This document shows positions 415 to 16,197 of a stretch of 53,123 bases of DNA, piece by piece. The DNA comes from an uncultured Pelagibacteraceae bacterium (GTDB lineage: Bacteria > Pseudomonadota > Alphaproteobacteria > Pelagibacterales > Pelagibacteraceae), in contig CACHLB010000007.1 in assembly GCA_902580505.1 (NCBI GenBank), positions 1 to 53,123 on the forward strand, read 5' to 3'. Positions within the stretch are counted from its first letter, which is position 1; each line of letters opens with the position of its first letter. The position numbers and the translations under genes are program-made. A model generated the notes under the pieces. It did no database searches. It had not been told where the DNA came from and was given only the letters and a program-made list of their open reading frames with translations.

Positions 415-762
415 ATGAAATCTATATGTGTACTTGGAGTATTTGTTGCAGATCTATGTTTTATCGGTGAAAAAATTCCTGAAGTTGGTCAAACTATTTT
501 AGGAACAAAACACTTAATAGGACCTGGTGGAAAAGGATCTAACCAAGCAATTGCTGCAGCAAGACTTGGCGGAAACATAAGTTTTATTACAAAAATAGGT
601 GATGATAATAATGCTGAAATGGCACTAAATTTATATAAATCCTCTGGAGTAAATACCGATTATATTATTAAAGACAAAAATCACTCAACTGGTGTTGCTG
701 GTATTATGATTAATGCTAATACAGGTGATAATGCAATAAACATTATACCAGGCGCTGCATAA
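415..762 (+). pseudogene. Ribokinase-like PfkB sugar kinase, N-terminal fragment only
   Basis: The 115 residues match the N-terminal third of a PfkB-family kinase such as ribokinase (about 300 residues). The start MKSICVLGVFVADL and the substrate-binding GPGGKGSNQAIAAARLGG motif are intact, followed by FITKIGDDNNAEMA and STGVAGIMINANTG. The reading stops just after NIIPGAA, where ribokinases normally continue with GAN and about 190 more residues. The catalytic GAGD motif and the ATP-binding region are therefore missing and the product should be inactive. The stop arises where the sequence runs into a gene on the other strand (about 750-760). Pairing with fucU suggests a sugar import and phosphorylation operon before the break. 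Confidence 0.85.
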
Positions 763-1538
763 ATATCACCTTTTTTAAGCCTATTTTTTAAATCTTTAAA
801 GTTAACAACTGCAGCTCTACTCATTAGTATAAAAAGTGAGTTTGATTTCATAAGATTGAGTAATTTTTTATCAATCAGTCCTTTGTTTTTTGTAGTAATT
901 GCAGCGAGCACATAAATAACTTCACATTCTTTAAACATTTTTTTTAAAGTAATTGGTTTAAATCCTTGATTAATAATTTTTTTGTTTGGTATCCAAGGAT
1001 CATAGATATTTATTTTGCTCGAAAATGGTTTTAATAATGGAACCAAAGCTTTTCCTAGGTCTCCAAATCCCAATAATCCAATTCTTTTGTCTGATAACAA
1101 TGAAGACTTAAGATTTCCATCTAATCCGTACTTTTCCTTTTTATTAATGAAATCCTGATTTGCTCCATGAATATTTCTAAGAAGAGAGAGTGTAAATCCA
1201 AGTGCAATTTCTGCGACTGGTTTCGAGAAAACGGGTGAAGTTGCAATAACATGAATGCCTTTATCAAAGCAATAATTATAATCCATATTATCTAGAAAGT
1301 TACTTTCAACGTTTATTACTGCTTTCAACTTTTTTGCTTTCATTAACAAAAATTTAGGAAGATCAGGCTGTCCAATTATAAATTTCGCTTTATGAATATT
1401 ATTAATATAAAATTTTTGTTTATTTGTTTTTGGTGCGAAAATAAGCTTAAATTTATTTTTTAACTCATTTAATTTTGGTTTTGAAAAAATAAGCTCCATA
1501 GTTCTTGGATACGGATCAACAATTGCAATATCTTTCAT
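756..1538 (-). pseudogene. D-2-hydroxyacid dehydrogenase, truncated at 3' end
   Basis: This is a D-isomer-specific 2-hydroxyacid dehydrogenase, NAD-dependent. The substrate domain is N-terminal, the nucleotide motif GLLGFGDLG lies near residues 154-162, and the active-site Arg is in SRAAVV (R241). After GDIYAA (residues 258-262) the family normally continues into a Glu-bearing segment (DVF.EEP) and a His-bearing one (SPH.AG). Both are absent. The open frame instead runs on to 681 as antisense of the ribokinase fragment, giving a 285-residue chimera with a meaningless tail. Two of the three catalytic residues are lost, so it should be inactive. It starts three bases after the stop of the upstream Gfo/Idh gene and was probably the last gene of that leftward operon. 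Confidence 0.8.
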
Positions 1539-1541
1539 GAT

Positions 1542-2696
1542 CTATAAGAGAATTTTTTTTACTTCTTCTTCCGTAAATCTTTTTGGCTTTTCACAATTAG
1601 TTTTTATTTTTTGAGGTACTCCAGTTGTTGCAGCTTTCATAGTAGACTCAATTATATCTAAAACATGAAGAGATAGCTCTCCAGAACATCGATGTTTTTT
1701 CTTTTTTTCGATTGAATATAACATCTCAGACATTCCAACACTTCTATAGTTTGCATTTGTTGGTGACTCATTAGATCTACCGCTGGCAGATGTAATATTT
1801 ATTTTTCCTAAATGCATTTTATCAGTTTTATGTTCACCCCAACGACCACCCTCTGTAACAGAAATATAAACAGATCCACCAAACATATTCGGATCAGGAA
1901 CGATAATTGATCCTTTAGTTCCATAAAGTTCCATATGATTTCTTTGATGATTAATAACATCAAAGGATAGAGTAACTTGAATAATTGCTTCATTATGAAA
2001 TTGAATTGTTGCTAAATAAGTAGTTGGTGTTTCAACCTTAAATGTTTTTCCTTTATTTGGACCTGCTCTATAATTTCTTCTTTTAAAAGCCGTTAATGTT
2101 CTTCCTTGTACCTGTTTAGCTGGCCCTAAAAGATTAACAAGCGTTGTAAAAAAATAAGGACCCATATCTATTACTGGACCTCCCTCTTTTTTATACCAAG
2201 ACTCTGGTTTAGGATGAAAGTTTTCAACACCAGGAAATGCAAAGATTGCATTTCCAAGTTTGATTTGTCCAATCAAATCAGAGTCAATTAATTCCTTTGC
2301 TTTTTGTCCACCTCCTCCAAGAAAAGTATCCGGCGCATTACCAATGTATAATTTTTTTTGTTTTGCCAAAGCCACTAGCTCTTTTCCTTTTTGAAAGTAT
2401 GTTGCTAATGGTTTTTCTGAATAAACATGCTTACCTGCATTTAATACTTTTTTTGATACAGAATAATGTGATTGAGGAATTGTTAAATTTAAAATTACCT
2501 CAATATCTTTATTTTTTAGTATTTCATTAACAGTCATTGATTTGATGTTGTATAATTTCGCACATTTTTCAGCTGCTTTTTGATTAATATCTGCACAAGC
2601 AACGATTTTGAAATTATTAAAATATTGGTGTCCCCTAAAATATGTTTCTGCGATATGGCCACATCCTATGAGACCAACCTTAAAAACTTTATTCAT
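1542..2696 (-). CDS. Gfo/Idh/MocA family NAD(P)-dependent oxidoreductase
   Basis: A 384-residue Gfo/Idh/MocA oxidoreductase. These enzymes oxidise or reduce a hydroxyl of sugars, cyclitols or their derivatives with NAD(P). The N-terminal Rossmann motif is GLIGCGHIAE (residues 8-17) and the conserved Glu-Lys-Pro is at 94-96 (VYSEKPLA), with the Lys as the usual catalytic residue. The middle DMGPYFFTTLVNLLGP is the family's substrate-domain helix. It sits five bases downstream of iolD on the same strand, so a role on inositol or an inosose isomer is likely, but the substrate cannot be assigned. It is not the best iolG candidate, which is the gene at 10378. Confidence 0.85.
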   Translation of the reverse strand: MNKVFKVGLIGCGHIAETYFRGHQYFNNFKIVACADINQKAAEKCAKLYNIKSMTVNEILKNKDIEVILNLTIPQSHYSVSKKVLNAGKHVYSEKPLATYFQKGKELVALAKQKKLYIGNAPDTFLGGGGQKAKELIDSDLIGQIKLGNAIFAFPGVENFHPKPESWYKKEGGPVIDMGPYFFTTLVNLLGPAKQVQGRTLTAFKRRNYRAGPNKGKTFKVETPTTYLATIQFHNEAIIQVTLSFDVINHQRNHMELYGTKGSIIVPDPNMFGGSVYISVTEGGRWGEHKTDKMHLGKINITSASGRSNESPTNANYRSVGMSEMLYSIEKKKKHRCSGELSLHVLDIIESTMKAATTGVPQKIKTNCEKPKRFTEEEVKKILL

Positions 2697-2701
2697 GAAT
2701 T

Positions 2702-4546
2702 TTAGACACCTTGTCTTTGCTTTGATTTTCCTTCTTTATGAAGTTTTAATGCCTCTTCATTTTCTTTTGTTGATGGCATTTCTAAAGTAGGACTTTCCCA
2801 GTAAGCAGAACCTTCTAGCCACTCATAAGAATGAGTTTTTATTGAAATTAAATAAGTCACATCAGATTTTTTAGCTCTTTTAAATGCTTCTTCTAATTCA
2901 GAAATAGATGATACCTCCTCAGATTTTGCACCCATACTCTCTGCATGTTTAGCAAAATTAACAGGTACAAGATTTGGAGCTTTTGAACTATTAAATAGAC
3001 AATTAAATTCTTTGCCACCTTTAAATAATTGTAGCCTATTAATAACGGCATGACCTCCATTATCACATAAAACTATTATTAATTTATTATTTGTTATAAC
3101 TGATGAATAAATATCTGAATTAAAAAGCAAATAAGATCCATCTCCTACAAAAGCTATTACTTCTTTATCTGGGTTTGCCATTTTAACTCCTAATGCACCA
3201 GAAATTTCATAACTCATACAGCTAAAACCCCATTCGGTTTCATGTGTATTTAATTCTTTTGGCCTCCAAATTTGTACAACTTCTCCGACCAATCCACCTG
3301 CTGCAGTAACAGCAATGTCTGTTGGATCTGAATTACGATATATTGCTCCTACAGCGTGTGCATAACTAGGTAGTTCTTGATTAGTTGGACCGCTTTCTTT
3401 ATCTACATAATCATTCCAATTTTTTAATTCATCTCTTGATTTTTTATGCCATTCATCAGGTGCTTTCCAATCTCCCAAAGCATTTGATAGCTCTTGTAAG
3501 CTTACTTTTGCATCACCTATTACTGATTGCGCCAAATGTTTGCTAGCATCAAATCTAGAGACATTAACACTAACAAGTGAAAAGTCTGGGTTCTCAAAAT
3601 TTGCCCACGAACCAGTTGTGAAATCAGCTAACTTTGTTCCAACAGCAATAGCTAGGTCAGTTTGTTTTGCTAAATTATTTGCTGCTTTGCCACCAAGACC
3701 ACCTATTGGACCTAAAAAATGAGAGTGATCTCTCTTCATAGTAGAGTAACCCATAACTGTTTGTGTAACTGGTATATTGTGTTTAATTGCAAAATTACCT
3801 AGATCTTCCATTGCATCAGAGTAGAAAACCCCTCCACCTGAAATCAATAAAGGATTTTTAGATTTTTTAATTTGCTCAGCTGCTTGTTTTATTTGAAAAT
3901 CATCAGGTCTTGGTCGTCTAATATTATGAACTCTCTCTTTAAAAAATTCCTCAGGATATTCATATGTTTCACCTTGGACATCTTGTGATAATGATAAGCA
4001 AGCTGGTCCGCAATCTGCTGGATCTAACATTGTTTGGATTGCTTGAGGTAATGTTTGTAAGATTTGTTCAGGTCTTGTAATTCTATCAAAATATTTTGTT
4101 ACTGGTTTGAATGCATCATTCTGAGTAATGCCAGGATTATTAAAATGCTCAACTTGTTGTAGAACCGGGTCAGGCATTCTGTTTGCATATGTATCTCCAG
4201 GTAAAAATAAAATTGGAAGTCTATTGCTCATAGCAACTGCCGAGGCTGTAACCATATTTGTAGATCCTGGTCCAACTGAACTAGTTGCAACAAAAAATTG
4301 TTTTCTTCTTTTAGCTCTAGCATATGCTATTCCAGTCAGAGCCATATTTTGCTCATGATGCCCTCTATAAGTTGGTAATTTATCTTGATTTTCTTGTAGA
4401 GCTTGTCCTAAACAAGCAACATTGCCATGTCCAAAAATACCAAAAGCTCCAGCAAATAACTGCTCTTTTTTACCATCTATTAAAATTTTTTGAGCAATAA
4501 GATGTTTTATTATTGCATGTGCACAAGTGAGCTTTATTTTTTTCAT
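2702..4546 (-). CDS. iolD: 3D-(3,5/4)-trihydroxycyclohexane-1,2-dione hydrolase (IolD)
   Basis: IolD is a thiamine-diphosphate enzyme that opens the ring of trihydroxycyclohexane-1,2-dione to give 5-deoxyglucuronate, step three of myo-inositol breakdown. At 614 residues it has the normal family length. The ThDP-activating Glu is E65 in YRGHHEQNMA, the SSVGPGSTNMVTA segment (89-101) is typical of IolD, and the metal/ThDP motif is GDGSYLLFNSD (468-478) with Asn near 496. An ordinary acetolactate synthase lacks the long RGHHEQNMA and GPGSTNMVTA signatures. It is divergent from the aldehyde dehydrogenase across 52 bases and heads a leftward operon with the Gfo/Idh gene. Confidence 0.92.
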   Translation of the reverse strand: MKKIKLTCAHAIIKHLIAQKILIDGKKEQLFAGAFGIFGHGNVACLGQALQENQDKLPTYRGHHEQNMALTGIAYARAKRRKQFFVATSSVGPGSTNMVTASAVAMSNRLPILFLPGDTYANRMPDPVLQQVEHFNNPGITQNDAFKPVTKYFDRITRPEQILQTLPQAIQTMLDPADCGPACLSLSQDVQGETYEYPEEFFKERVHNIRRPRPDDFQIKQAAEQIKKSKNPLLISGGGVFYSDAMEDLGNFAIKHNIPVTQTVMGYSTMKRDHSHFLGPIGGLGGKAANNLAKQTDLAIAVGTKLADFTTGSWANFENPDFSLVSVNVSRFDASKHLAQSVIGDAKVSLQELSNALGDWKAPDEWHKKSRDELKNWNDYVDKESGPTNQELPSYAHAVGAIYRNSDPTDIAVTAAGGLVGEVVQIWRPKELNTHETEWGFSCMSYEISGALGVKMANPDKEVIAFVGDGSYLLFNSDIYSSVITNNKLIIVLCDNGGHAVINRLQLFKGGKEFNCLFNSSKAPNLVPVNFAKHAESMGAKSEEVSSISELEEAFKRAKKSDVTYLISIKTHSYEWLEGSAYWESPTLEMPSTKENEEALKLHKEGKSKQRQGV

Positions 4547-4598
4547 TATTCTATATATAAATCTTTAACTTTTAACAATTAAACACAATTTAAAAAAT

Positions 4599-6041
4599 AT
4601 GTATAGCAATTTTGGTCAATTCATTGATGGTCAGTGGCAACAAGCAGAAAAAAAAGAAACTTATAAAGTTATCAATCCAGCAACAGAAGAAGTTTTAGGA
4701 GAAGCATCAAAAGCGTCCTCTGTTGACGTTCAAAAAGCATTAAAATCAGCAGAGAAAGGACTCGAAACTTGGAAAAATACCACTCCATGGCAGAGGTCTT
4801 ATGTAATAAGAAAAATTGCAGATTTGATGCGTGAAAGAAAAGATGTATTGGCTAAATGGCTTACACTTGAAGTTGGAAAACCTCTTAAAGAAGCAATTGG
4901 AGAAGTTGGTGGTGGAGCAGATATATTTGAATGGAATGCAGAAGAAACTAAGAGAATTTATGGTGAAACATTACAAAGTAGATTTCCAGAAACAAGAGTT
5001 CATGTTTACTATCAGCCAGTAGGTGTTGTAGCAGCACTTGTGCCATGGAATTTTCCCATAGTTTTAGCATCTAGAAAAATTTCAACTGCACTGGCTGCTG
5101 GTTGTTCAGTTATTTGTAAACCAGATGTAATTACGCCTGGAGCAGTTATGGAACTTGTAAATATTTGTAAAGATGCTGGAGTACCTGATGGAGTAGTCAA
5201 TTTATTATCTGGAGACCCGGCTGAAATATCAAATGAATTACTTGAATCAGATATAATAAAAAAAGTTTCTATAACTGGCTCAACACGTGTTGGAAAATTA
5301 ATACTTAAAAAAGCTGCAGATAAAGTTCAAAGAGTTACAATGGAATTAAGTGGTCATTCTCCATTTATAGTATTTGACGATGTTGACATGAATAAAGTTG
5401 CAGATATGGCAATAACAGCAAAATTTCGAAACAATGGTCAAGTTTGTATATCCCCAAATAGGTTTTACATTCAAGAAACAAGAAAAGAAGAATTTGTAAA
5501 TGCTTTCGTTGATAGAGCAAAAAAATTAAAAATTGGAAATGGTATGGATGAAGGTACTGACTTAGGACCTTTAACAACAGCAAAACGTTTGGAGGAGATT
5601 GAAAAATTAGTTGAAACGACAAAGAGTGAAGGCGCAAAAGTTGTTTTAGGTGGGGGTAGACCTTCAGGATTTAATAAAGGTTATTATTTTGAACCAACCG
5701 TATTTGATGATGTGCAGGATAATTTTACAATTATGAAAGAAGAACCTTTTGGTCCCTTAGTGCCTGTTTTAACTTTCAAGGATTTTGACGAAGTAGTAGA
5801 GAGAGCAAATAATAATGACCTGGGACTTTGTAGCTATTTATATACAAACTCAATGGACAAAGCTAATAGAGCATCAGAAATGATGGAAACCGGTTGTGTA
5901 GCAGTAAATACAGCTGCAGTCGCAGTTGCTGAAGCTCCATTCGGTGGAATAAAACAAACCGGTTATGGTCGTGAAGGTGGATCTATGGCTATAAAAGATT
6001 ATCTTAATATAAAGTATACCCATATGGGTCTAAAAACCTGA
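4599..6041 (+). CDS. NAD(P)-dependent aldehyde dehydrogenase (succinate-semialdehyde type)
   Basis: A full-length (480 aa) aldehyde dehydrogenase. The catalytic Cys is C283 in NNGQVCISPNRF, the general base is E249 in MELSGHSPFIVFDD and the oxyanion Asn is N151 in VPWNFP. The ELSG.SPFIVFDD and C-terminal PFGGIKQTGYGREGG patterns place it with succinate- or glycolaldehyde-type enzymes. The CoA-acylating methylmalonate-semialdehyde dehydrogenase (IolA) usually ends the inositol pathway and carries different signatures. It starts the operon with the aldolase four bases downstream. That pairing suggests it oxidises an aldehyde made by the aldolase or the ring-cleavage product, but the true substrate is unknown. 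Confidence 0.88.
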   Translation: MYSNFGQFIDGQWQQAEKKETYKVINPATEEVLGEASKASSVDVQKALKSAEKGLETWKNTTPWQRSYVIRKIADLMRERKDVLAKWLTLEVGKPLKEAIGEVGGGADIFEWNAEETKRIYGETLQSRFPETRVHVYYQPVGVVAALVPWNFPIVLASRKISTALAAGCSVICKPDVITPGAVMELVNICKDAGVPDGVVNLLSGDPAEISNELLESDIIKKVSITGSTRVGKLILKKAADKVQRVTMELSGHSPFIVFDDVDMNKVADMAITAKFRNNGQVCISPNRFYIQETRKEEFVNAFVDRAKKLKIGNGMDEGTDLGPLTTAKRLEEIEKLVETTKSEGAKVVLGGGRPSGFNKGYYFEPTVFDDVQDNFTIMKEEPFGPLVPVLTFKDFDEVVERANNNDLGLCSYLYTNSMDKANRASEMMETGCVAVNTAAVAVAEAPFGGIKQTGYGREGGSMAIKDYLNIKYTHMGLKT

Positions 6042-6045
6042 GTAA

Positions 6046-6837
6046 ATGAGAAAAAATAAAGCCAAAGAAATAATTAAAAATGGCAAAGCTGTAATCAATG
6101 GTTGGTTACAAATTCCAAGTACTGTTTCGGCAGAAACAATGGCTCAACAAGGATGGGACTCATTAACAATTGATATGCAACACGGGCTCGTTGATTACTC
6201 GAATGCAATGCCAATGATGCAAGTGATTTCAGCGACTGAAGTCGTGCCTTTGGCAAGAGTTAATTGGAATGAACCTGGTCAAATTATGAAAATTTTAGAT
6301 GCTGGATGTTATGGAATAATTTGCCCAATGGTAAGTAATCGAAATGAGGCAGAAAGATTTGTTCAAGCATGTAAATATCCACCAGATGGATATAGAAGTT
6401 TCGGTCCAATGAGAGGGTTAATCTATGGAGGGCCTGATTATGGAGATCATGCAAACGATGAAATATTAAAAATGGCTATGATTGAAACTAAAGAAGCTTT
6501 AGAAAATCTTGATGAAATTATGAGTACCCCAGGCCTTGATGGTATCTATATAGGGCCTGCTGATTTAAGTTTGGCTATAGGAGAAAAGCCTGGTTTTGAC
6601 AAAGGTGAAGATACTAAAGCTTATTCAGAAATACTTAGAATATTAGAGCATGCAAAAAAAAACAATATATTTGCTGGAATTCATAACGGAAGCACTGACT
6701 ATGCAAAAAAAATGATTGAAAAAGGTTTTCAATTTGTAACAGTTGGAGCAGACTCCAGATTTATAAGTGCGGGTGCGAAAAATACAGTTGAAAATTTAAA
6801 AGGCACAGTGAAATCAGAATTATCTAAAGCCTATTAA
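6046..6837 (+). CDS. HpcH/HpaI-family class II 2-keto-3-deoxy acid aldolase
   Basis: A 263-residue metal-dependent aldolase of the HpcH/HpaI/RhmA family, which cleaves 4-hydroxy-2-oxo acids into pyruvate and an aldehyde. Visible signatures are IDMQHG with the base His46, PLARVNW with Arg71, metal ligands Glu147 (MAMIETKEALEN) and Asp173 (YIGPADLS), and DGYRSFGPMRG. The length matches the family. Its start follows the aldehyde dehydrogenase stop by four bases, so the two are almost surely co-translated. In an inositol-type cluster this is unusual, because the textbook aldolase (IolJ) belongs to the fructose-bisphosphate aldolase family and acts on a phosphorylated substrate. Confidence 0.9.
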   Translation: MRKNKAKEIIKNGKAVINGWLQIPSTVSAETMAQQGWDSLTIDMQHGLVDYSNAMPMMQVISATEVVPLARVNWNEPGQIMKILDAGCYGIICPMVSNRNEAERFVQACKYPPDGYRSFGPMRGLIYGGPDYGDHANDEILKMAMIETKEALENLDEIMSTPGLDGIYIGPADLSLAIGEKPGFDKGEDTKAYSEILRILEHAKKNNIFAGIHNGSTDYAKKMIEKGFQFVTVGADSRFISAGAKNTVENLKGTVKSELSKAY

Positions 6838-6861
6838 TAAATAAAGTATAAACTTTTACGT

Positions 6862-7821
6862 ATGAAAAAAATCTTAATAATAGGATCGATACATAATCAT
6901 GGTATTGATTTACTAAAAGGAAATAAAAAATTTGAGTTTGAAGTTGTAGACAATACAGATACAGAATTTTTGAAAGATAAAATAAAAGACTGTGATGGAA
7001 TAAGTATTAGAACATCTAAATTGTCAAAAGAAATTATAGACTCAGCTAAGAATTTAAAAGTGATATCTAGACATGGTGTAGGCTATGACAATATAGATCT
7101 TAAAGCAACCAAGCAAAACAATATCACATTAGCAATAACAGCTACAGCAAATGCTCAAGCTGTAGCAGAACATGTTTTATTCATGCTATTCAGTATTGCA
7201 AAAAGAAATAATATGTACAACGAGACTGTAAAAGCTGGAAAGTTCAGTGATAGAACTAAGCTTCCTAAAACAATTGAGTTATGGAATAAAAGTATCTTAA
7301 TTGCAGGTTTTGGTCGTATTGGAAAATGCTTACTTAAAAAATGTAAGGGTTTAGAAATGAACATTTTTGTTTATGATCCTTTTGTCAGCGAAGAGGAAAT
7401 TAAAAAAGTTGGTGGCACTAAAATTAATGATTTAAATGAGAGTTTAAATAAAATGGATGCAATTTCAATTCATATGCCTTTAAACGAAAATACAAAACAT
7501 TTAATCAATTATGAAATGATAAAAAAAATGAAAAAAAATTGTATTTTAATTAATGCTGCAAGAGGTGGTATTATTAATGAGGAAGATCTTAATAAGGCTT
7601 TAAATGAAAATTTAATTTTTGGTGCAGGGCTTGATGTTTTTGAAAAGGAGCCTCCATCTTTAGATAATCCATTGCTAAAAAATGAGAAAGCATTTTTAAG
7701 CCCTCATTCAGCGGTATTTACCGAAGAATGTTTGTCTAGAATGGGTATTGAAACAGTTCAAAATATTATTGATTTTTTTGATAATAAATTGGAAAAGTCA
7801 AAAATAGTAAAAATCTCATGA
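6862..7821 (+). CDS. D-2-hydroxyacid dehydrogenase (SerA/GhrB-like)
   Basis: An intact 319-residue NAD(P)-dependent 2-hydroxyacid dehydrogenase. The nucleotide motif is GFGRIG (149-154) and the catalytic triad is complete: Arg234 in NAARGGII, Glu263 in DVFEKEP and His282 in SPHSAV. It lacks the C-terminal ACT regulatory domain of many 3-phosphoglycerate dehydrogenases, so a catabolic role on a 2-keto or 2-hydroxy acid such as tartronate, glycerate or lactate is more likely than serine synthesis. It lies in the operon with the aldehyde dehydrogenase and aldolase (24-base gap) and overlaps the next gene by four bases (ATGA). Confidence 0.88.
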   Translation: MKKILIIGSIHNHGIDLLKGNKKFEFEVVDNTDTEFLKDKIKDCDGISIRTSKLSKEIIDSAKNLKVISRHGVGYDNIDLKATKQNNITLAITATANAQAVAEHVLFMLFSIAKRNNMYNETVKAGKFSDRTKLPKTIELWNKSILIAGFGRIGKCLLKKCKGLEMNIFVYDPFVSEEEIKKVGGTKINDLNESLNKMDAISIHMPLNENTKHLINYEMIKKMKKNCILINAARGGIINEEDLNKALNENLIFGAGLDVFEKEPPSLDNPLLKNEKAFLSPHSAVFTEECLSRMGIETVQNIIDFFDNKLEKSKIVKIS

Positions 7822-8318
7822 GCTTAAAATTAAAAAATTTTGGATTGTTAGAGTTTATTATCATTATATCAGCTGTTTATGTTGTAGGAATGTTGATTTG
7901 GACAGCGAGTACAAGGCCTGAAGTTGAAGCTCGTGCAAATTTAGTAAAAGAAAATCATAAAAAAGTTGTCGATTTTATTAATGGCGAAATTAATAATTGT
8001 GGAAATAATGATGAAGGGAAGATAACAGTTTGGGGTGATCCATGTAATGCTGAATGGATAGCTGAAAAGGTTGTTAATCACATAAATGATAATCTTAAAA
8101 TTGAAAATCCATTTTCAGATGACAATAAAGTTAAAACAGACCCTGACCCGAGAATAAAAGCAGAAGGAAAAGCTGGTCAGTCAGTAGAAATGGGTGTTAT
8201 TTTTATAATGTCATCAAATTTTCTAGCAGAACCAGGATCAGAATGGATTGTTGGTACTTGTTTTAAATCTCCATGTGTGGCTGCTGGTAATAATGAATTA
8301 ACTTCTTTATATAGATAG
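7818..8318 (+). CDS. Unknown membrane-anchored protein with pilin-like N-terminus
   Basis: A 166-residue protein I do not recognise. A hydrophobic segment at residues 11-30 (LLEFIIIISAVYVVGMLIW) carries a Glu near its start and is followed by a charged amphipathic stretch (ARANLVKENHKKVVDF). That layout resembles type IV pilin or pseudopilin N-terminal helices. The spacing is not canonical: Glu is three residues after Gly rather than five. The rest is predicted to lie outside the membrane and has two cysteine pairs, NNCG with DPCN and GTCF with SPCV, which could form disulfides. Its ATG overlaps the dehydrogenase stop, implying translational coupling, and it ends flush against convergent iolE. 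Confidence 0.6.
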   Translation: MSLKLKNFGLLEFIIIISAVYVVGMLIWTASTRPEVEARANLVKENHKKVVDFINGEINNCGNNDEGKITVWGDPCNAEWIAEKVVNHINDNLKIENPFSDDNKVKTDPDPRIKAEGKAGQSVEMGVIFIMSSNFLAEPGSEWIVGTCFKSPCVAAGNNELTSLYR

Positions 8319-9221
8319 CTAATTATTTTCAATTTCTAAATTTGCACTTTTTAAAGTTTCAATTAGATATTTGTATCCAATTTTAGCATATTCAAAAGGA
8401 TTTGCCTTTGCTGGATCTTGCTCCGCTTCTACAACTAACCATCCAGAATAATTTTGTTGTTTTAACAGTTCAAAAAAAGGTTTGTAATCAATGCAACCAT
8501 CTCCAGGAACAGTGAAGGCTCCTTCCAAAAAAGCCTGTCTAAAACTATAATCGTGATTTAACGAATTATCTAAAACATTTTTTCTCATATCTTTGCAATG
8601 TATATGAATTATTCTTTCTTTAAATTCTTTATAAATTTTCAAACTATCTCCTTTTGCAAATAACATGTGTCCAGTATCTAAAGTTAGTTTGACACTACCA
8701 TCTGTGTTTTCTAATAATCTTCTTGTATCTTCTTCACTTTCAATGCAAGTTCCCATATGATGATGGTAAGCAAGAGGCATGTCTTGATCTTCTAGATATT
8801 TTCCCATTTCTGAAATTTTTTTATAATATTTTTTAGACTCTTCTAAATCCATTCTAGGTCTTTTAGACAAATTTATATTTGGATCACCTTGAATAGAACC
8901 ATAAACTTCGGCAAAAACCATGCAGGGTGCTTTACAATCTTGAAATAGTTTCAATTGTTTTTGAATTTTTAATTTTTCCTCCTCAAAAGTATTTTTTCTT
9001 AAATTTGCTCCATACCAACCTGAGCATAATTTTAAATTATATTTATTTAATATAGGAATTAATTCTTTTGATGTTTTTGGAAATTTTCCACCAGACTCTA
9101 TTCCTTTAAATCCTGCTTCACTAGCTTCAGAAAGACATTGTTCAAGCGAAGTATCACCACCAAGCTCAGGCATGTCATCATTGCTCCAAGCTATTGGGGC
9201 TATACCTAATTTTACTGACAT
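8319..9221 (-). CDS. iolE: Myo-inosose-2 dehydratase (IolE)
   Basis: IolE dehydrates 2-keto-myo-inositol (scyllo-inosose) to 3D-(3,5/4)-trihydroxycyclohexane-1,2-dione, the substrate of IolD. At 300 residues it has the family length and the TIM-barrel fold of the xylose-isomerase-like superfamily. The opening GIAPIAWSNDDMPELGG is a hallmark of IolE. Later segments LTLDTGHMLFAKGD, HIHCKDMR and WLVVEAEQDP hold the metal-binding Asp, His and Glu expected for the family. It is read leftward, divergent by 26 bases from a Gfo/Idh gene. This supports inositol as the substrate of the whole island. Confidence 0.93.
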   Translation of the reverse strand: MSVKLGIAPIAWSNDDMPELGGDTSLEQCLSEASEAGFKGIESGGKFPKTSKELIPILNKYNLKLCSGWYGANLRKNTFEEEKLKIQKQLKLFQDCKAPCMVFAEVYGSIQGDPNINLSKRPRMDLEESKKYYKKISEMGKYLEDQDMPLAYHHHMGTCIESEEDTRRLLENTDGSVKLTLDTGHMLFAKGDSLKIYKEFKERIIHIHCKDMRKNVLDNSLNHDYSFRQAFLEGAFTVPGDGCIDYKPFFELLKQQNYSGWLVVEAEQDPAKANPFEYAKIGYKYLIETLKSANLEIENN

Positions 9222-9247
9222 AAATAATAGTTTTGTTATGATATTAG

Positions 9248-10393
9248 ATGCTTCAAAAAATTAAACCTAAAAAATTTAAACTTGGAATTGTTGGAGGAGG
9301 ACCTGGATCTTGGATCGGACATGTTCATAGGATTTCATCTAGATATGATGACAAATACGAAATCGTTGCAGGGGTATTTTCTAGAAGTGTTGATAAATCT
9401 AGGAAATTTGGACAAAGTATAGGCTTAGATAAATCAAGATGTTATTCAAATTACAAGGAGATGTCTGAAAAAGAAGCGAAAAGAAAAGATGGTATTAATG
9501 TTGTAGCAATAATGACTCCACCATCAAGTCATCAAATTATTGCAGAGAATTTTATAAAAAAAAATATACATGTAATTTCAGACAAACCATTTGCTGGAAA
9601 TCTTGAGCAGGGAAAAAAACTATATAAAGCGATTAAAAATAACAAAAAAATTAAATATGCGCTGACTCACAACTATTCATCTTATCCAATGGTAAGAGAA
9701 GCAAAAAATTTAGTGGAAAAAGGAAAAATTGGAAAAGTTGAATATATCAATGTTGAATATATTCAGGATTGGACAGATGGTAATAAAATTTCAAAAAAAA
9801 ATTCAAAAAAGGTTTTTAAATGGAAAGTTGATAAAAAAATTGTTGGTGTATCAGCGGTTCTCAATGAAATAGGATCACACGCATATCATCTAGCAATTTA
9901 TATTACAGGCCTTAAAGGAGAAAAACTGATTGCCGATGTAAGTAAATATTCGAAGGACGTTAATATGGATAATAACGCACAGGTTTTTGTTAATTTTAAT
10001 AATGGTGCTAAAGGAATTGTATGGACATGTGTAACGGCTAAAGGTGGTGTTTATGGTTTAAGAATTAGAGTATATGGGTCTAAAGGAAGTTTAGAATGGG
10101 TTCAAAATGATCCAAATTATCTAAAATTTAATCCAAGCAAAGGAGCAGTAAAGTTTTTAGAAAGAGGACATACAAAGGCAAATTTTTCAAAAAAATTTTC
10201 TAGAGTAAAATTTGGTCACCCTGAAGGATATTTAGATGCTTTTGCGAATATATATAAGGAATTTGCTGAATATTTAAAAACAAATACAAAAAAAAGATTT
10301 TATTTTCCTAACGAAGAAGAGGGTTTGGAGACTGCTAAATTCATTGATGCATGCAAGAAATCATCATTAAAAAAACAATGGGTAAAAATTTAA
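9248..10393 (+). CDS. Gfo/Idh/MocA family oxidoreductase, second paralogue
   Basis: A 381-residue Gfo/Idh/MocA protein with the extended nucleotide motif GIVGGGPGSWIGHVHR (13-28) and the catalytic Lys in SDKPFAG (Lys113, Asp replacing the usual Glu). Family members with GG-x-G-x-x-IG-x-VHR often occur in inositol and scyllo-inositol gene clusters. I infer oxidation of another inositol isomer or of an inosose, feeding the IolG-IolE route. Its end overlaps the iolG start by 16 bases, so the two are translated together. It is distant in sequence from the paralogues at 1542 and 10378, so a recent duplication is unlikely. Confidence 0.85.
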   Translation: MLQKIKPKKFKLGIVGGGPGSWIGHVHRISSRYDDKYEIVAGVFSRSVDKSRKFGQSIGLDKSRCYSNYKEMSEKEAKRKDGINVVAIMTPPSSHQIIAENFIKKNIHVISDKPFAGNLEQGKKLYKAIKNNKKIKYALTHNYSSYPMVREAKNLVEKGKIGKVEYINVEYIQDWTDGNKISKKNSKKVFKWKVDKKIVGVSAVLNEIGSHAYHLAIYITGLKGEKLIADVSKYSKDVNMDNNAQVFVNFNNGAKGIVWTCVTAKGGVYGLRIRVYGSKGSLEWVQNDPNYLKFNPSKGAVKFLERGHTKANFSKKFSRVKFGHPEGYLDAFANIYKEFAEYLKTNTKKRFYFPNEEEGLETAKFIDACKKSSLKKQWVKI

Positions 10394-11391
10394 TTAACGT
10401 AGCATTATTTGGTTTGGGAAGAATAGGACTAATGCATGCAAATAATTTAATAAATAATAAAAATTTTAATCTAAAATATATTTTTGATGTTAATAGAAAA
10501 CTTGCAAAAAAAGTTTCAAAAAATCTAAGTTGTCAAAATATTGAAAGTCCTCAAATAGCATATAAAGATAAAAAAATTGATTGTATTTTTATCTCTTCCA
10601 CTACATCAACTCATCTTAAATTTATATATGAAAGTATAAAAAGTAATAAAACAGTATTTTGTGAAAAACCTTTAGATTTAAATTTAAAAAAAATTCAAAA
10701 TTACGAAAAAAAAATAAATAAATTTAATCATAAAATTCAAATTGGATTTAATAGAAGATACGATCCAGGTCATAATTCTCTAAAAAATAATTTAATAAAA
10801 GGCAAGATAGGAAAGCTAGAGAAAATTATTATTACTAGCAGAGATCCAGCTGCTCCATCTATAAATTATTTAAAAGCCTCAGGTGGTATTTTTAAAGATA
10901 TGATGATCCATGATTTCGATCTAGCAAGATATTATGCGGGTAAAGATGAATTTGTTTCTATATTTGCCACAGGGAGCAATATTTCTAATAAATACTTCAA
11001 TAAACTTAGAGATTTCGAGCTTGCGACGGCAATTTTGAAAACAAAAAATGGTGTTCAATGTATTATTAGTAATTCTAGACATTGTAGTTTTGGTTATGAT
11101 CAAAGAGTAGAGCTTTTTGGAAGCAAAGGAATGATTATTTCTGATAATATCAAAGAAAATGAGATTAGTTTGTATTCTAATAAAAGTACGAATGCACGAT
11201 CAAGCTTTAAACATTTTTTTATAGAAAGATACGATCAGGCATTCAAAGAACAGTTAAATGATCTTGCCAAATTATTCAGATCAAATTTGAGACCTAAAAG
11301 TGGTTTTATTGATGGAAAGATTTCAATACAAATTGCTGAGAGTGCTATCCGGTCATTAAAATCAAAAAAGTTTGAAAAAATAAAATATTAA
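10378..11391 (+). CDS. iolG: Myo-inositol 2-dehydrogenase (IolG)
   Basis: IolG oxidises myo-inositol to 2-keto-myo-inositol with NAD, the first step of inositol catabolism. From the ATG at 10378 the protein has 337 residues, the family length. An earlier in-frame ATG at 10351 would add nine unrelated residues inside the upstream gene. The Rossmann motif is FGLGRIG (11-17), catalytic Lys97 is in FCEKPLD, and the Asp/His pair is D174/H178 in FKDMMIHDFD. GFNRRYDP and TSRDPAAPS are characteristic of IolG. With iolE and iolD in the same island the assignment is firm. Confidence 0.9.
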   Translation: MGKNLINVALFGLGRIGLMHANNLINNKNFNLKYIFDVNRKLAKKVSKNLSCQNIESPQIAYKDKKIDCIFISSTTSTHLKFIYESIKSNKTVFCEKPLDLNLKKIQNYEKKINKFNHKIQIGFNRRYDPGHNSLKNNLIKGKIGKLEKIIITSRDPAAPSINYLKASGGIFKDMMIHDFDLARYYAGKDEFVSIFATGSNISNKYFNKLRDFELATAILKTKNGVQCIISNSRHCSFGYDQRVELFGSKGMIISDNIKENEISLYSNKSTNARSSFKHFFIERYDQAFKEQLNDLAKLFRSNLRPKSGFIDGKISIQIAESAIRSLKSKKFEKIKY

Positions 11392-11402
11392 AAATCAACT
11401 TT

Positions 11403-11418
11403 AGGTTGAATACAACCT
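11403..11418 (+). other. Short hairpin after iolG
   Basis: AGGTTG and CAACCT form a six-base stem closed by the loop AATA just after the iolG stop. The following bases (GCTTCTTT) are only partly T-rich, so a weak terminator is possible but not convincing. It could equally be an operator for a dimeric repressor. Confidence 0.35.
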
Positions 11419-11460
11419 GCTTCTTTACAATCTAAATAAATTTATGTTAGCTTTAATGTT

Positions 11461-11476
11461 TAAAAGTTAACTTTTA
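11461..11476. promoter_or_regulatory. 16-bp perfect palindrome upstream of binding-protein gene
   Basis: TAAAAGTTAACTTTTA is a perfect 16-bp palindrome centred 28-29 bases before the ATG of the transporter binding protein, in a 105-base gap. The position suits an operator for a dimeric regulator of the transport genes. In such AT-rich DNA, chance palindromes of this size are not rare across the whole window, so function is an inference. Confidence 0.4.
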
Positions 11477-11496
11477 TTTAAGAGAGGAAATTAAAA

Positions 11497-12420
11497 ATGA
11501 AAACAATAAAGAACTTTATATTAGCTGTTGCTGCATGGGCAATGATGTCTGTATCAGCATTAGCGACTGATATAATTGTTGTTTCACATGGACAAGCTAA
11601 TGACCCTTTTTGGTCGGTAGCTAAAAATGGAGTTGATGCTGCTTGTAAAGATATGGGAGTATCTTGCAAATACACTGCGCCTGGAACTTTTGACATGGTT
11701 GAAATGGCAAAACTAATTGATAACGCTGTATCACAAAAACCAAAAGGTATTGTAATTACTTTGCCTGATGCAGCTGCATTAGGAAAATCTGTTAAAGCAG
11801 CAATAGCTGCTGGTATACCAGTAGTTTCTATGAACTCTGGTTCGGATGACTATGCGTCATTAGGAATTAGTGCACACGTAGGTCAAACTGAATTTGAAGC
11901 TGGCGTTGGTGGTGGACAAAAAATGAAAGCTGCTGGAGGAAAAAAAGCGTTATGCGTTAACCACGAAGTTGGAAACGTAGCACTTGATAGAAGATGTGCA
12001 GGTTTCAAAAAAGGTTTTGGTGGATCTGTTGATATTCTTGGAACATCAAATGACCCAACTGAAATTCAAAAAGCTGTTGCTGCAAAATTAGGTGGTGGAT
12101 ATGACACTATTCTAACTTTAGGAGCTGGTTTATCTGGTGAAGCAGCACTAAAAGCTTTAGAAGCTGCTGGTAAAGTTGGAAATGTTAAATTAGGAACATT
12201 TGATATGTCACCTAATATGTTAAAAGCTGCTGCTGCAGGTAAAGTAGAGTTTTTAATTGACCAACAACAATATCTACAAGGTTATTTGCCTATAGCTATT
12301 TTTGCTCAGTACATGAGATGGGGAACAATGCCTGCAGGTGTAGTTATGACTGGACCTGGATTTGTTACTCCTGATAATGCTGCTAAAGTAATTAAATGGG
12401 CAGCTCAAGGTTATAGATAA
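11497..12420 (+). CDS. Periplasmic sugar/inositol-binding protein of ABC importer
   Basis: The periplasmic receptor of a ribose/inositol-type ABC importer (RbsB-like, type I fold, 307 aa). A signal peptide covers residues 1-23 with cleavage after SALA. The mature start TDIIVVSHGQANDPFW, the PDAAALGKSV and VVSMNSGSDDYA segments and LGTFDMSPNMLKAA are typical of this family. A good Shine-Dalgarno (GAGAGGA) precedes the ATG. The gene is richer in G+C and Ala codons than its neighbours, as expected for a highly expressed binding protein. A strong hairpin terminator follows it, before the permease gene. Its place after iolG makes myo-inositol the most likely ligand, but a related polyol or sugar is possible. 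Confidence 0.88.
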   Translation: MKTIKNFILAVAAWAMMSVSALATDIIVVSHGQANDPFWSVAKNGVDAACKDMGVSCKYTAPGTFDMVEMAKLIDNAVSQKPKGIVITLPDAAALGKSVKAAIAAGIPVVSMNSGSDDYASLGISAHVGQTEFEAGVGGGQKMKAAGGKKALCVNHEVGNVALDRRCAGFKKGFGGSVDILGTSNDPTEIQKAVAAKLGGGYDTILTLGAGLSGEAALKALEAAGKVGNVKLGTFDMSPNMLKAAAAGKVEFLIDQQQYLQGYLPIAIFAQYMRWGTMPAGVVMTGPGFVTPDNAAKVIKWAAQGYR

Positions 12421-12433
12421 AATCTATATATTT

Positions 12434-12468
12434 AAGGCCTGACTAAATTTAATAGTCAGGCCTTTTTT
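12434..12468 (+). terminator. Strong intrinsic terminator between binding protein and permease
   Basis: AAGGCCTGACTA (12434-12445) pairs perfectly with TAGTCAGGCCTT (12453-12464) across a seven-base loop, giving a 12-bp stem that runs into a T tract (12463-12468). It is the only strong intrinsic terminator I saw in the window. It lies 10 bases before the permease ATG inside the transporter operon. It likely sets a high ratio of binding protein to membrane components through partial termination and 3'-end protection. Confidence 0.88.
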
Positions 12469-12478
12469 CAAAATTTGA

Positions 12479-13606
12479 ATGTCATTAAAATCAAAAAGTA
12501 TTTCATCAAAAAGTAGTCTTAATGAAGACGAACGTCTAAAAAAAATATCACCGCTAAGAGTTTTATTGAATAGGCCTGAGCTAGGTGCATTAGGTGGCTC
12601 GATACTTGTATTTATATTTTTTGGAATAGTTGCTGGCGATACTGGTATGTTTAGCGCCTATGGAATGCTTAATTTCCTCGATGTTTCAGCTAATTTAGGA
12701 ATTATAGCAATAGCAGCAGCGATGTTAATGATTGGTGGTGAATTTGATTTGTCAATTGGATCAATGATTGGTTTTGCTGGAATTTGTATTGCAATTCCTG
12801 CGATTTACTGGGGTTGGCCTTTATGGATGAGTATAGTTTTTGCTTTCGCTATGGCAGTATTGGTTGGATACTTTAATGGCATAATGGTTGTCAAAACTGG
12901 TTTGCCATCTTTTATTGTAACACTTGCAATGCTTTTTATTTTAAGAGGTTTGACATTAGCAATAACAAGATTGATTACTGGTAGAACTCAAGTTCCAGGA
13001 CTAAGAGTATTAATTGAAGATGATCCATTAGCTTGGTTATTTGCTACAGATACTTTTAAATGGTTTTTTACTTGGTTGGGATCATTAAAATTAATTGAAC
13101 TGAGAACTGATGGAACTCCTCTTGCAACTGGAATACCTCCATCAGTTATTTGGTTTATTGCATTAACATTGTTTGCAACATGGATATTGATGAAAACAAG
13201 ATACGGGAATTGGATCTTCGCATCTGGAGGCGATAAGGTTGGAGCAACAAATGTGGGTGTACCTGTTGGAAGGGTAAAAATAAGTCTATTTATTGGTACG
13301 GCAGTCGCTTCTACTATTTTTGCTTGTATTCAAGTATTAGATGCGGGTTCTGCAGATACTATGAGAGGTACTTTAAAAGAACTAGAAGCTATTGCAGCTG
13401 CTGTTGTTGGTGGGTGTCTCTTAACTGGAGGTTATGGATCTGCAATAGGTGCTGCTTTTGGTGCAATTATATTTGGGACTGTATCTATGGGAATATTTTA
13501 TACAGATGTTGACACTGATTGGTTTAAAGTTTTTTTAGGAGCAATGATGTTGATAGCTGTAGTATTTAATAACTATATCAGAAAGAAAGTGACTGAGAGT
13601 AAATAA
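12479..13606 (+). CDS. Sugar/inositol ABC importer permease
   Basis: A 375-residue inner-membrane permease of the RbsC/AraH family, with many hydrophobic segments. Segments such as [16 protein letters not shown] and [25 protein letters not shown] (in part) are family signatures, and the [10 protein letters not shown] region contacts the ATPase. The N-terminal 25 or so residues are polar and Ser/Lys-rich. It starts 10 bases after the upstream terminator without an evident Shine-Dalgarno, so translation may be weak. Its stop overlaps the ATPase start in TAATG. Confidence 0.9.
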
Positions 13607-14403
13607 TGTCTGACTATCTCGTTCAATTTAATAATATTAGTAAGTTTTTTGGAAAGGTAATAGCGCTTAAAGATGTCACAATGAGATTAAAAAAAGGTGA
13701 GATCATGTGCTTACTTGGAGATAATGGAGCAGGAAAGTCGACTTTAATTAAAACTTTAGCAGGTGTTCATAAGCCTGATGAAGGAGAAATTATATTTGAA
13801 GATAATAAAATTGTTTTTGACTCACCCAAAGATGCTTTAGATATTGGTATAGGAACAGTTTATCAAGATCTAGCATTAGTTCCTTTAATGAGTGTTACTA
13901 GAAATTTTTTTATGGGAAGAGAGCCTCAAAAAGGTATTCCTTTCCTTAAAACTTTTGATGTGGAGAAAGCAAATAAGATAGCAGCGGATAGAATGGGACA
14001 GATAGGTATCGATGTTAGAGATCCATCTCAGGCAGTTGGAACTATGTCCGGTGGTGAAAGACAATGCCTAGCAATATCACGGGCTATATATTTTGGAGCA
14101 AAAGTTTTAGTTTTAGATGAACCAACTTCTGCTTTAGGAGTTCATCAAGCATCAATGGTATTAAAATATATTGTAAAGGCTGCGTCTGAGGGATTGGCTG
14201 TAATTTTAATTACTCATAATGTACATCATGCGTACCCTGTTGGTAATAGTTTCACTGTACTTAACCGAGGAAAAAGCATGGGCACGTTCCAAAAAAAAGA
14301 TATTTCTAGAGAAAAACTTCTTAGTATGATGGCTGGTGGTGAAGAATTAGACAAACTTGAAGTCGAACTTCAAGAAATGGATAGAATTCACAACAAAAAT
14401 TAG
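13606..14403 (+). CDS. Sugar/inositol ABC importer ATP-binding protein
   Basis: A single-domain ABC ATPase (265 aa) energising the importer. Walker A is GDNGAGKST (38-46), the signature is MSGGERQ (146-152), and Walker B is VLVLDEPTS with D170/E171. Bacterial ribose/inositol systems often use a fused two-domain ATPase of about 500 residues (RbsA-like). This one has a single domain, so two copies should assemble per transporter. It is coupled to the permease by a one-base overlap and is the last transport gene. Confidence 0.9.
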
Positions 14404-14426: not shown

Positions 14427-15287
14427 ATGACAAAATCATTTCCTTTGCTCTTTATATTATTATGGTCTTCGGCATTCATATCTGGGAAAGAAATTGTTCA
14501 AAATGCTTCTCCATTTGCAGCTTTAGCATTTAGGTTTGGGATTGTAACAATTGGTTTTCTTGTATTTGCTTATCTCAGTAATGATAAAATTTTCGGAAAA
14601 TTAAAAAATATTATTGAAAGTCTTTCAACAGGTATTTTATTTCATGGGATTTATTTAGGTGGATGTTGGTATGCATTTTCAATTGGGATGCCAGCTGCAA
14701 TTGTAGCTTTAATAGTTACACTTCAACCGATTTTAACAAATATTTTATCTGGTCCTATTTTTGGAGAAAAAATATCTTGGAAACAGTGGGTAGGTATCAG
14801 TTTAGGTTTCATTGGTTCTGTCACTGTCTTAGGAATTGATTTTGGAAAAGAAATTCCTCCTTTAGGATTGTTAGCTACAGTCTTAGCTTTATTTGCAATA
14901 ACAGCTGGAACATTGTGGCAAAAAAAATTAAGTGGAAATTTAGCTTTGTCAGTTAACAATGCGTATCAAGCAGTTGGTGGTTGCCTTTTTAATCTATTAT
15001 TAATGTTTATATTTGAAAATGCTTATATAAATTTTACAACTAGTTTTATATTAGGTATGTCTCACCAAATTATATTAGTTTCATTTGGGGCTTTTACTAT
15101 TCTTATGTTTTTAATCAAAAGGGGTACTGTGGGTAAAACTACTACTTTATTTTTTTTAGTACCTCCTACTTCAGCAGTGATGGCATGGATATTTTTAAAT
15201 GAACAATTAACATTTACTGACATAATTGGTTTTTTAATAACAACTGTTGGAGTATTTATAGCTACAAGGGATAAAAAAAATGGATAA
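14427..15287 (+). CDS. EamA/DMT-superfamily transporter
   Basis: A 286-residue inner-membrane protein with about ten hydrophobic segments in two repeated EamA halves, the usual build of drug/metabolite exporters (RhaT/YdcZ-like). The opening FPLLFILLWSSAFISGKEIV is typical of the first EamA helix. It starts 23 bases after the transporter ATPase and overlaps the next gene by eight bases. The two are probably co-expressed, and an exported methylated or sulfur compound is conceivable, but the substrate is unknown. A second DMT gene lies on the far side of the methyltransferase in the opposite direction. Confidence 0.82.
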   Translation: MTKSFPLLFILLWSSAFISGKEIVQNASPFAALAFRFGIVTIGFLVFAYLSNDKIFGKLKNIIESLSTGILFHGIYLGGCWYAFSIGMPAAIVALIVTLQPILTNILSGPIFGEKISWKQWVGISLGFIGSVTVLGIDFGKEIPPLGLLATVLALFAITAGTLWQKKLSGNLALSVNNAYQAVGGCLFNLLLMFIFENAYINFTTSFILGMSHQIILVSFGAFTILMFLIKRGTVGKTTTLFFLVPPTSAVMAWIFLNEQLTFTDIIGFLITTVGVFIATRDKKNG

Positions 15288-16197
15288 CAATTTTTTTAAA
15301 AAAATAAGAATATTAGATGGTGGCATAGGTCAATTATTACTTGAAAAAGGAATGGTATCTATGGGGACCTTATGGTCTGCTAGCGCTTTATTAAATGAAA
15401 AATATCATCAAATGTTAGTTGATACTCATCTATCATATATCAATGCAGGCTCAGATGTTATAGTTACAAACACTTTTAGTTGTAGAAAATTTAGATTAAT
15501 AGAAAATAAAGTTGGTGATGAATTCAAAAAATTAAACGAAATTGCATGTAAACTTGCAATCCAAGCTAAAAATTTATCAAAGAAAAATGTATTAGTAGCT
15601 GGATCAATTCCAAGCCAAAGAGACACTTATATAACTGATGATCGCGATATCAAATTAATAGAGAAAGATATGTTTGAACAAGCTGATATTTTAAGTGAAT
15701 TTACTGATTTTTTATACTTAGATGTTATTAGCAGCACTAATGAAGTTAAAGCCGCTCTTAATATATCTAAAAAATTAAACAAAAAAGTTTTAATTGGAAT
15801 ACATTTAAAAAAAAATGGTGACCTACCCTCAGAAGAAAAAATTGAGCAATTACTTAGAATTATTCAAGATGAAAATACACTTGGTGTAGTTTGTGCATGT
15901 ATTTCTCCAGAAATATCTCTATCCGTATTAGATAAATTTTTAAATTGTGAAGTACCATTTGGATTTAAAATAAATTTGTGGGGGGTTGATGAACCAGGCC
16001 CAATACAGACATTTAATACAGCAAAACCTCATGAAATTGGAGTAAATCCTAATCAATCTTTAGGAAAAAGAGATAATTTTGATGCAAATGAATTTTATAA
16101 TCTATCAAAAAAATTTATAGAAGGTGGGGCAACAATTTTAGGTGGATGTTGTGAGACAAAACCAGAGCATATTAACTCTATATCTTCTCTTAAATAA
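15280..16197 (+). CDS. Homocysteine S-methyltransferase-like protein
   Basis: A 305-residue member of the homocysteine S-methyltransferase family (MmuM/BHMT-type), which moves a methyl group from S-methylmethionine, betaine or a similar donor to homocysteine. The start ILDGGIGQLLLEKG and segment GSDVIVTNTFSCRK are typical. The zinc ligands are the C-terminal pair in GGCCETKPEHI and a Cys in VVCACISPE. The length excludes a full MetH. Its ATG lies inside the DMT gene, leaving no leader for a SAM riboswitch. It overlaps the convergent DMT gene by eight bases. The methyl donor cannot be told from sequence. Confidence 0.82.
   Translation: MDNNFFKKIRILDGGIGQLLLEKGMVSMGTLWSASALLNEKYHQMLVDTHLSYINAGSDVIVTNTFSCRKFRLIENKVGDEFKKLNEIACKLAIQAKNLSKKNVLVAGSIPSQRDTYITDDRDIKLIEKDMFEQADILSEFTDFLYLDVISSTNEVKAALNISKKLNKKVLIGIHLKKNGDLPSEEKIEQLLRIIQDENTLGVVCACISPEISLSVLDKFLNCEVPFGFKINLWGVDEPGPIQTFNTAKPHEIGVNPNQSLGKRDNFDANEFYNLSKKFIEGGATILGGCCETKPEHINSISSLK

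Follow-up and report, generated by a model that had tools for sequence, protein, structure and literature searches.

Inositol genes of an uncultured Pelagibacteraceae bacterium suggest a kinase-free lower half of inositol catabolism not described before

Described inositol pathways and the Pelagibacteraceae locus

Inositol is converted to 5-deoxy-D-glucuronate by IolG, IolE and IolD, and in the classical pathway (Bacillus subtilis type) these are followed by IolB, IolC, IolJ and IolA, the last belonging to an enzyme type (methylmalonate-semialdehyde dehydrogenase, MMSDH/IolA-type) shared with valine catabolism. The Thermotoga-type pathway also departs from the classical lower half and runs without IolE and IolD. 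A variant of the classical pathway with an IolC-DUF2090 protein is described (PMC9007349). The window, i.e., the whole stretch of 53,123 nucleotides analysed here (contig CACHLB010000007.1 of assembly GCA_902580505.1, from an uncultured Pelagibacteraceae bacterium), carries inositol catabolic genes with an unusual lower half, and this locus is genuine, is conserved and is linked with inositol genes. It shares IolG, IolE, IolD, an importer and an unlinked MMSDH/IolA-type enzyme with the classical pathway and, unlike the Thermotoga type, has both IolE and IolD. IolB and IolC were not found; instead there are an aldehyde dehydrogenase (ALDH), an HpcH/HpaI-family aldolase and a 2-hydroxyacid dehydrogenase (2HADH). 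We tentatively propose that the lower half is oxidative and kinase-free, 5-deoxyglucuronate being oxidised twice and then cleaved to hydroxypyruvate and malonate semialdehyde. The genes are listed below, GFO standing for Gfo/Idh/MocA oxidoreductase.

681..1538, minus strand: 2HADHa, second 2-hydroxyacid dehydrogenase, truncated by a junction at 754-758; beside a ribose-type cluster in relatives
1542..2696, minus strand: GFO1, oxidoreductase of the Gfo/Idh/MocA type that forms a tandem with IolD; scores 63 bits with the IolG model
2702..4546, minus strand: IolD, trihydroxycyclohexane-1,2-dione hydrolase (TIGR04377, 798 bits, cut-off 715)
4599..6041, plus strand: ALDH, non-CoA, succinate-semialdehyde-dehydrogenase-like (PF00171; TIGR01780 498 bits, below the cut-off of 646)
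6046..6837, plus strand: HpcH/HpaI-family class II aldolase (PF03328, 114 bits, cut-off 25)
6862..7821, plus strand: 2HADHb, D-2-hydroxyacid dehydrogenase resembling phosphoglycerate dehydrogenase (PGDH) and glyoxylate reductase (profile and structure matches)
7818..8318, plus strand: hyp166, conserved 166-residue protein with an N-terminal hydrophobic segment, in the same strand run
8319..9221, minus strand: IolE, myo-inosose-2 dehydratase (TIGR04379, 397 bits, cut-off 290)
9248..10393, plus strand: GFO2, Gfo/Idh/MocA oxidoreductase (profile matches)
10351..11391, plus strand: IolG, inositol 2-dehydrogenase (TIGR04380, 351.6 bits over nearly the whole length, just below the cut-off of 355)
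11497..12420, plus strand: CUT2-type substrate-binding protein of the importer (PF13407; closest solved chain 4ru1, 152 bits)
12479..13606, plus strand: ABC permease of the importer, named by eye from its translation; conserved alongside the binding protein gene in relatives
13606..14403, plus strand: ABC ATPase of the importer, named by eye from its translation; conserved with the permease in relatives

The profiles confirm iolG, iolE and iolD with an importer, as the original prediction for this DNA had it, but IolG is the gene at 10351-11391 and not the first gene of the predicted island (1542-2696). The latter, GFO1, is ruled out as IolG by its score of only 63 bits and is a generic Gfo/Idh/MocA oxidoreductase. 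The solved chain closest to the binding protein, 4ru1, presumably holds myo-inositol. The HpcH/HpaI aldolase, the non-CoA ALDH and the 2-hydroxyacid dehydrogenases named in that prediction are likewise all present, the copy at 681-1538 being cut by an inverted junction. The genome itself (1.09 Mb in 36 contigs) is 86.5% complete, so that absences from it lean on the clade-wide counts given below. Its size, a G+C near 30% and the gene content would suit a bacterium of the SAR11/Pelagibacter kind.

Distribution in the family and in other lineages

The family panel comprised 247 genomes of the bacterium's own family, 102 of them at least 90% complete. IolD was above its cut-off in 102 of the 247 as well, a different set that is equal in size by chance. 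No family genome matched the IolB model (TIGR04378) at E 0.001, while the same model gave matches in three of 14 control genomes, and the IolB family PF04962 had no match in the bacterium's own genome. IolC, MmsA and the dehydratases discussed below were searched in 54 family genomes (30 with IolD, 24 without); none had an IolC (TIGR04382), with which DUF2090 is usually fused, above the cut-off of 300, the best match being generic PfkB kinases at 118 bits. As divergent IolC and IolB proteins of another lineage score 296 and 152 bits with the same models, insensitivity is an unlikely cause of these absences. The earlier observation that iolB and iolC are not seen in the window holds for the family genomes searched; both gene sets coexist in some other lineages. 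A CoA-dependent iolA, which had also been reported as not seen, is missing from the cluster but present elsewhere in the genome: a CoA-acylating MMSDH/IolA-type enzyme lies outside the window on another contig (C2:69855-71288, 708 bits), and an MmsA/IolA-type enzyme unlinked to the locus occurs in 51 of the 54 family genomes, this one included. Malonate semialdehyde would thus have an outlet, leaving the ALDH of the locus free for another substrate. Given the missing IolB and IolC, no outlet for the IolD product other than the module of ALDH, aldolase and 2HADHb was seen in the family.

The genes of this module track IolD. Orthologs of the aldolase (at least 300 bits) were found in 108 of the 247 genomes, of which 100 also had IolD over the cut-off; two had IolD only, eight the aldolase only and 137 neither. 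When four genomes with IolD below the cut-off are counted, these numbers become 102 with both, four with IolD only and six with the aldolase only. Among 80 hand-chosen family genomes an ortholog of 2HADHb was present in 42/42 with IolD and in 1/38 without it. Fisher p is about 1e-56 for the association of the aldolase with IolD and about 4e-22 for the second association, values that overstate independence because the genomes are related. The surroundings of IolD were fetched for 20 of the 102 IolD-positive family genomes (hand-chosen, near-copies included); all 20 loci had the order GFO1-IolD-ALDH with ALDH divergent from IolD, and in 19 the aldolase adjoined.

Outside the family, a wider panel of 385 alphaproteobacterial genomes had the aldolase at E 1e-60 in 79, 77 of them non-family genomes, and stretches of up to 20 kb were taken from 40 of these 77. 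The aldolase stood beside inositol genes in three of the 40 (L099, L122, L123), most others lying in other contexts. Two further aldolase-inositol loci (L136, L137) came from IolD-centred stretches, and two contigs of genome G330 (L121, L135) are halves that would fit the same arrangement, though the contigs are separate. IolD exceeded its cut-off in 56 of the 385 genomes. In 54 of these (the 56 minus G000 and G003) some IolB match was found in 33, over the cut-off in 20, and none in 21. A hand comparison showed that eight of the 21 IolB-less genomes also lack the aldolase at E 1e-60, so that loss of IolB has more than one context. The idea that the aldolase replaces IolB everywhere is weakened by these eight genomes and by a coexistence in Paracoccus described below. 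Genomes G333, G445, G536 and G613 have a high-scoring IolD with neither an IolB match nor the aldolase. In three other loci (L146, L148, L150) IolD stands with an IolB-like protein below the cut-off and with IolE-like proteins only about 25% identical, and in L146 a PfkB kinase lies between IolD and the IolB-like protein; this cluster perhaps serves another cyclitol.

The best 80 of 487 relatives among the matches listed in named genomes were viewed with a reach of about 9 kb each way. IolD or IolE was present in 59 of these 80 loci, and 50 of the 59 had the order ALDH-aldolase-2HADH (query-matched genes). 2HADHb lay at most 3 kb from the aldolase in 55 of the 59 inositol-linked loci as against six of the 21 others, and ALDH in 51 as against two. 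Contig ends may separate the 21 from inositol genes. In the common layout IolE-IolD is transcribed divergently from ALDH-aldolase-2HADH, ALDH is often preceded by IolG, and a Gfo gene often follows 2HADH; this layout was found in Rhizobium, Mesorhizobium, Paracoccus, Rhodobacter, Komagataeibacter, Thalassospira and one Pantoea metagenome-assembled genome. GFOx, a Gfo enzyme, was present in 53 of the 80 loci. The core lies on annotated plasmids in Acidiphilium multivorum, Paracoccus alcaliphilus, Rhizobium leguminosarum and Pantoea sp. At-9b; on the last two plasmids no gene named iolG stands beside ALDH. Many Alphaproteobacteria, and Pantoea as well, carry the conserved cluster, either chromosomally or on plasmids. 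It is conceivable, if less than probable, that bacteria have here a further ending of inositol catabolism, i.e., a double oxidation of 5-deoxyglucuronate with an ATP-free split, which is the only outlet seen in the tested IolD-positive family genomes and belongs to a recurring cluster.

In a tree of IolD (quick method, long branch, midpoint root) the family proteins group with those of G276, G580 and G406 (100% in the Shimodaira-Hasegawa-like approximate likelihood ratio test, SH-aLRT) within a 44-row set to which the IolDs of aldolase operons also belong, while ten other IolDs stand apart with the iolB-linked L153 and L154. The split is not clean, as L140, an IolD beside IolB, lies in the larger set.

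A possible oxidative route and its alternatives

Substrates of HpcH/HpaI aldolases must be 2-keto acids that carry a hydroxyl at C4, so that in a route from 5-deoxy-D-glucuronate C1 would have to be an acid and C2 a ketone. From the genes that are present, those absent from searches, their co-occurrence and their co-location we infer every substrate and product after IolD in the following scheme. ALDH would oxidise C1 and give 5-deoxy-D-glucarate; 2HADHb (or GFO1) would oxidise C2 to give (3S,4R)-3,4-dihydroxy-2-oxoadipate; and the aldolase would cleave the latter to hydroxypyruvate and malonate semialdehyde. The MmsA/IolA-type enzyme would convert malonate semialdehyde to acetyl-CoA, and hydroxypyruvate would become D-glycerate, possibly also by the action of 2HADHb. 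Such a route would dispense with the IolB isomerase, the IolC kinase and a dehydratase. By hand derivation C2 of 5-deoxy-D-glucarate is D-configured, as the D-2-hydroxyacid dehydrogenase family requires. 2HADHb is closest to PGDHs and glyoxylate reductases, and 9m0t, named a probable 2-ketogluconate reductase, stands further down its match list.

The closest solved structures to the aldolase are those of the hydroxyketoacid aldolase SwHKA (7o5i/6r62, 200 bits), ahead of HpaI (141), GarL (120) and YfaU (106), and the protein scores below the HpaI equivalog cut-off (TIGR02311, 163 vs 369 bits). Residues H46, R71, E147 and D173 are identical in 141/141 homologues counted (L099 and the PDB row excluded); from the family literature we take H46 and R71 to be the catalytic His and Arg, and E147 and D173 the metal Glu and Asp. 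The likeness to SwHKA lies in PF03328, the catalytic residues and the score of about 200 bits, whereas the gene context here is inositol and the Phe that contacts hydroxypyruvate is replaced by His. 6R62 is SwHKA crystallised with hydroxypyruvate (PMC10099721), and when 571 class II aldolases were screened, 19 enzymes of the HpcH/HpaI family accepted hydroxypyruvate, with C3 always S (PMC7610986). The predicted aldolase substrate, whose (3S,4R) configuration we derived by hand from its Fischer projection, would match these enzymes in its 3S centre.

Several observations weigh against the oxidative route. First, the predicted 4R centre is the outcome of GarL, unlike that of the SwHKA-type enzyme HpcH1 of S. 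wittichii, which gave 3S,4S products with hydroxyaldehydes (PMC7610986). Second, His occupies the presumed column of the SwHKA Phe in 81 of 84 inositol-linked homologues and in 55 of 57 others; since it is found in both groups alike, the active-site residues do not decide. Third, two aldolase trees conflict on a single origin of the inositol-linked aldolases: a careful tree of 63 rows placed the family aldolases apart from those of other operons, whereas a quick tree of 51 of these rows, leaving out the PDB row, four long-branch rows and seven near-copies, joined the inositol-linked aldolases at p 0.61. The L099 aldolase as sister of the family aldolases was rejected (p 0.018). Fourth, by hand count a 2HADH homologue lay about 0.5 kb or less from the aldolase in 15 of the 40 stretches from outside the family, 14 of them without inositol genes, so that the pairing is not special to inositol. 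Fifth, classical genes occur with the module in other lineages. Paracoccus alcaliphilus has the module, iolB, iolC-DUF2090 and a single iolD in one stretch (38 kb of plasmid viewed), and seven of the 59 inositol-linked loci hold parts of IolB or IolC. In genome G276 an ALDH-GFO1 pair precedes the genes for IolC, for a divergent IolB and for an IolJ-like aldolase, the HpcH/HpaI aldolase lying elsewhere with IolG, IolE and an importer, and G580 likewise has ALDH-GFO1-IolB-like. This company of IolC-IolB-IolJ-like genes in G276 makes GFO1 a less specific marker of the proposed route. Finally, the scheme leaves GFO1 and hyp166 unexplained.

Where the module stands beside iolB or iolC it may run in parallel or serve a particular isomer. 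Extended to the family, this would make it a module for another inositol isomer or derivative, or a parallel to the classical branch, and not a replacement of IolB and IolC for myo-inositol. We consider this less likely than the oxidative route but the strongest of its rivals. The Paracoccus stretch and the IolC, IolB-like and IolJ-like genes of G276 speak for it, as do G316 and G261, which carry IolB in the genome and the aldolase beside IolD. In the family, however, the module is the only outlet seen, with no IolB match in 247 genomes and no IolC over the cut-off in 54, and G592 and G330 have the aldolase with inositol genes and no IolB match.

The route first proposed for this locus went from 5-deoxyglucarate through a dehydratase to 4-hydroxy-2-oxoadipate, which would be cleaved to pyruvate and malonate semialdehyde; the dehydratase would have to be unlinked (e.g., a moonlighting IlvD). 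It is chemically sound, the aldolase family usually takes 3-deoxy-2-keto acids, and an IlvD-type protein (over 400 bits), which could moonlight in this way, occurs in 48 of the 54 family genomes. It resembles the GarL/YfaU-type 2-keto-3-deoxy sugar-acid pathways (dehydratase and aldolase) in the related aldolase and in an oxidised sugar acid as proposed substrate, and differs in that no tested dehydratase family tracks IolD and that the constant partner is a 2-hydroxyacid dehydrogenase. The tests covered MR_MLE (enolase superfamily, at least 100 bits) and the IlvD/Edd families, with GarD/UxaA and KdgD outside their scope. MR_MLE enzymes were present in 21/30 IolD-positive and 11/24 IolD-negative family genomes and Edd-type copies in 8/30 and 4/24, while nine of the 30 IolD-positive genomes had neither. 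Because these nine have no such enzyme at 100 bits, an enolase-superfamily enzyme (c19) found in three of the 20 loci, the nearest relative included, was rejected as the missing dehydratase. The local comparison does not discriminate, one of 59 inositol-linked and one of 21 other aldolase loci matching the dehydratase queries (three proteins). On a plasmid of Agrobacterium cucumeris (L287) a related aldolase outside inositol clusters adjoins an enolase-superfamily dehydratase, near L-arabinonate dehydratase, as expected of a dehydratase-type pathway; this arrangement favours dehydration, and two plasmid matches (H47, H48) carry the same label. With the tested families failing to track IolD and 2HADHb, present in 42/42 IolD-positive genomes, left without a role, we regard the dehydration step as unlikely. 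The rest of the original proposal, a kinase-free oxidation of 5-deoxyglucuronate with release of malonate semialdehyde, is in keeping with the lack of IolB and IolC, with the close co-occurrence of aldolase and IolD, and with the similar gene order elsewhere. A reading without a dehydratase agrees better with the gene set.

The oxidative route could also proceed with the roles exchanged, GFO1 oxidising C2 (or forming a lactone) and 2HADHb only reducing hydroxypyruvate to D-glycerate. GFO1 is possibly a lactone-forming or C2 dehydrogenase, it adjoins IolD in 20/20 loci, GFOx is present in 53 of the 80 named-genome loci, and the closest relatives of 2HADHb are PGDH and glyoxylate reductases. GFO1 and GFOx are, however, not close (25% by BLAST), and GFO1 travels with IolC-IolB-IolJ in G276, which makes the exchange a still more doubtful variant. 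A classical pathway with very divergent IolB and IolC is highly improbable: IolC-model matches below the cut-off do occur in 54/54 genomes and 10/20 loci have a ROK kinase close to IolD or the importer, but the same models recognise divergent proteins of other lineages well (IolB at 140-168 bits, IolC at 296 bits) and give in the family no IolB at E 0.001 and for IolC at most 118 bits.

If the oxidative route is true, inositol breakdown would have a kinase-free branch with NADH, acetyl-CoA and a C3 acid as products. This branch would serve the 102 of 247 sampled family genomes with IolD, and it would point to a candidate role in nature for an HpcH/HpaI aldolase that uses hydroxypyruvate. In a literature search that left most subscription journals outside, no paper was found that joins iolD, hydroxypyruvate and inositol, or three of iolD, 2-hydroxyacid dehydrogenase, inositol and HpaI, and 5-deoxyglucarate and two variant names had no occurrence in the 20 papers listed out of 38. 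Titles and abstract starts on inositol with SAR11 or Pelagibacter gave no description of such a route. A large inositol survey required at least three of iolB, iolC, iolD and iolE (PMC9430895); with only iolD and iolE the present locus would fall below this rule, and such a route would be missed by present annotation.

Remaining genes and the edge of the window

The gene for hyp166 was found beside 2HADHb and IolE in 11 of the 20 relatives' loci. Its alignment (11 sequences, window included) has a mean column identity of 75% and four invariant cysteines, and the protein matched none of the Pfam or NCBIfam profiles. GFO2 is present in two of the 20 loci (L037, where it is cut, and L038). The ROK-family kinase noted above (e.g., L046:18278-19180) has no counterpart in the window's first 18 kb.

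At the start of the window, positions 1-758 match positions 16038-16795 of the relative L038 on one strand and positions 754-3000 match 12849-10603 on the opposite strand (96-97% identity, 5-bp overlap), an ABC importer being skipped. From the alignment this inverted junction near the contig start looks like an amplification or assembly chimera. An RbsD-like gene (6-410) and a ribokinase fragment (526-714) were rejected as members of the locus, being parts of a ribose-type cluster brought in on the wrong strand by the inverted junction. Downstream of the importer, an open reading frame at 15280-16197, directly after one resembling an EamA-type transporter, resembles by eye a homocysteine S-methyltransferase.

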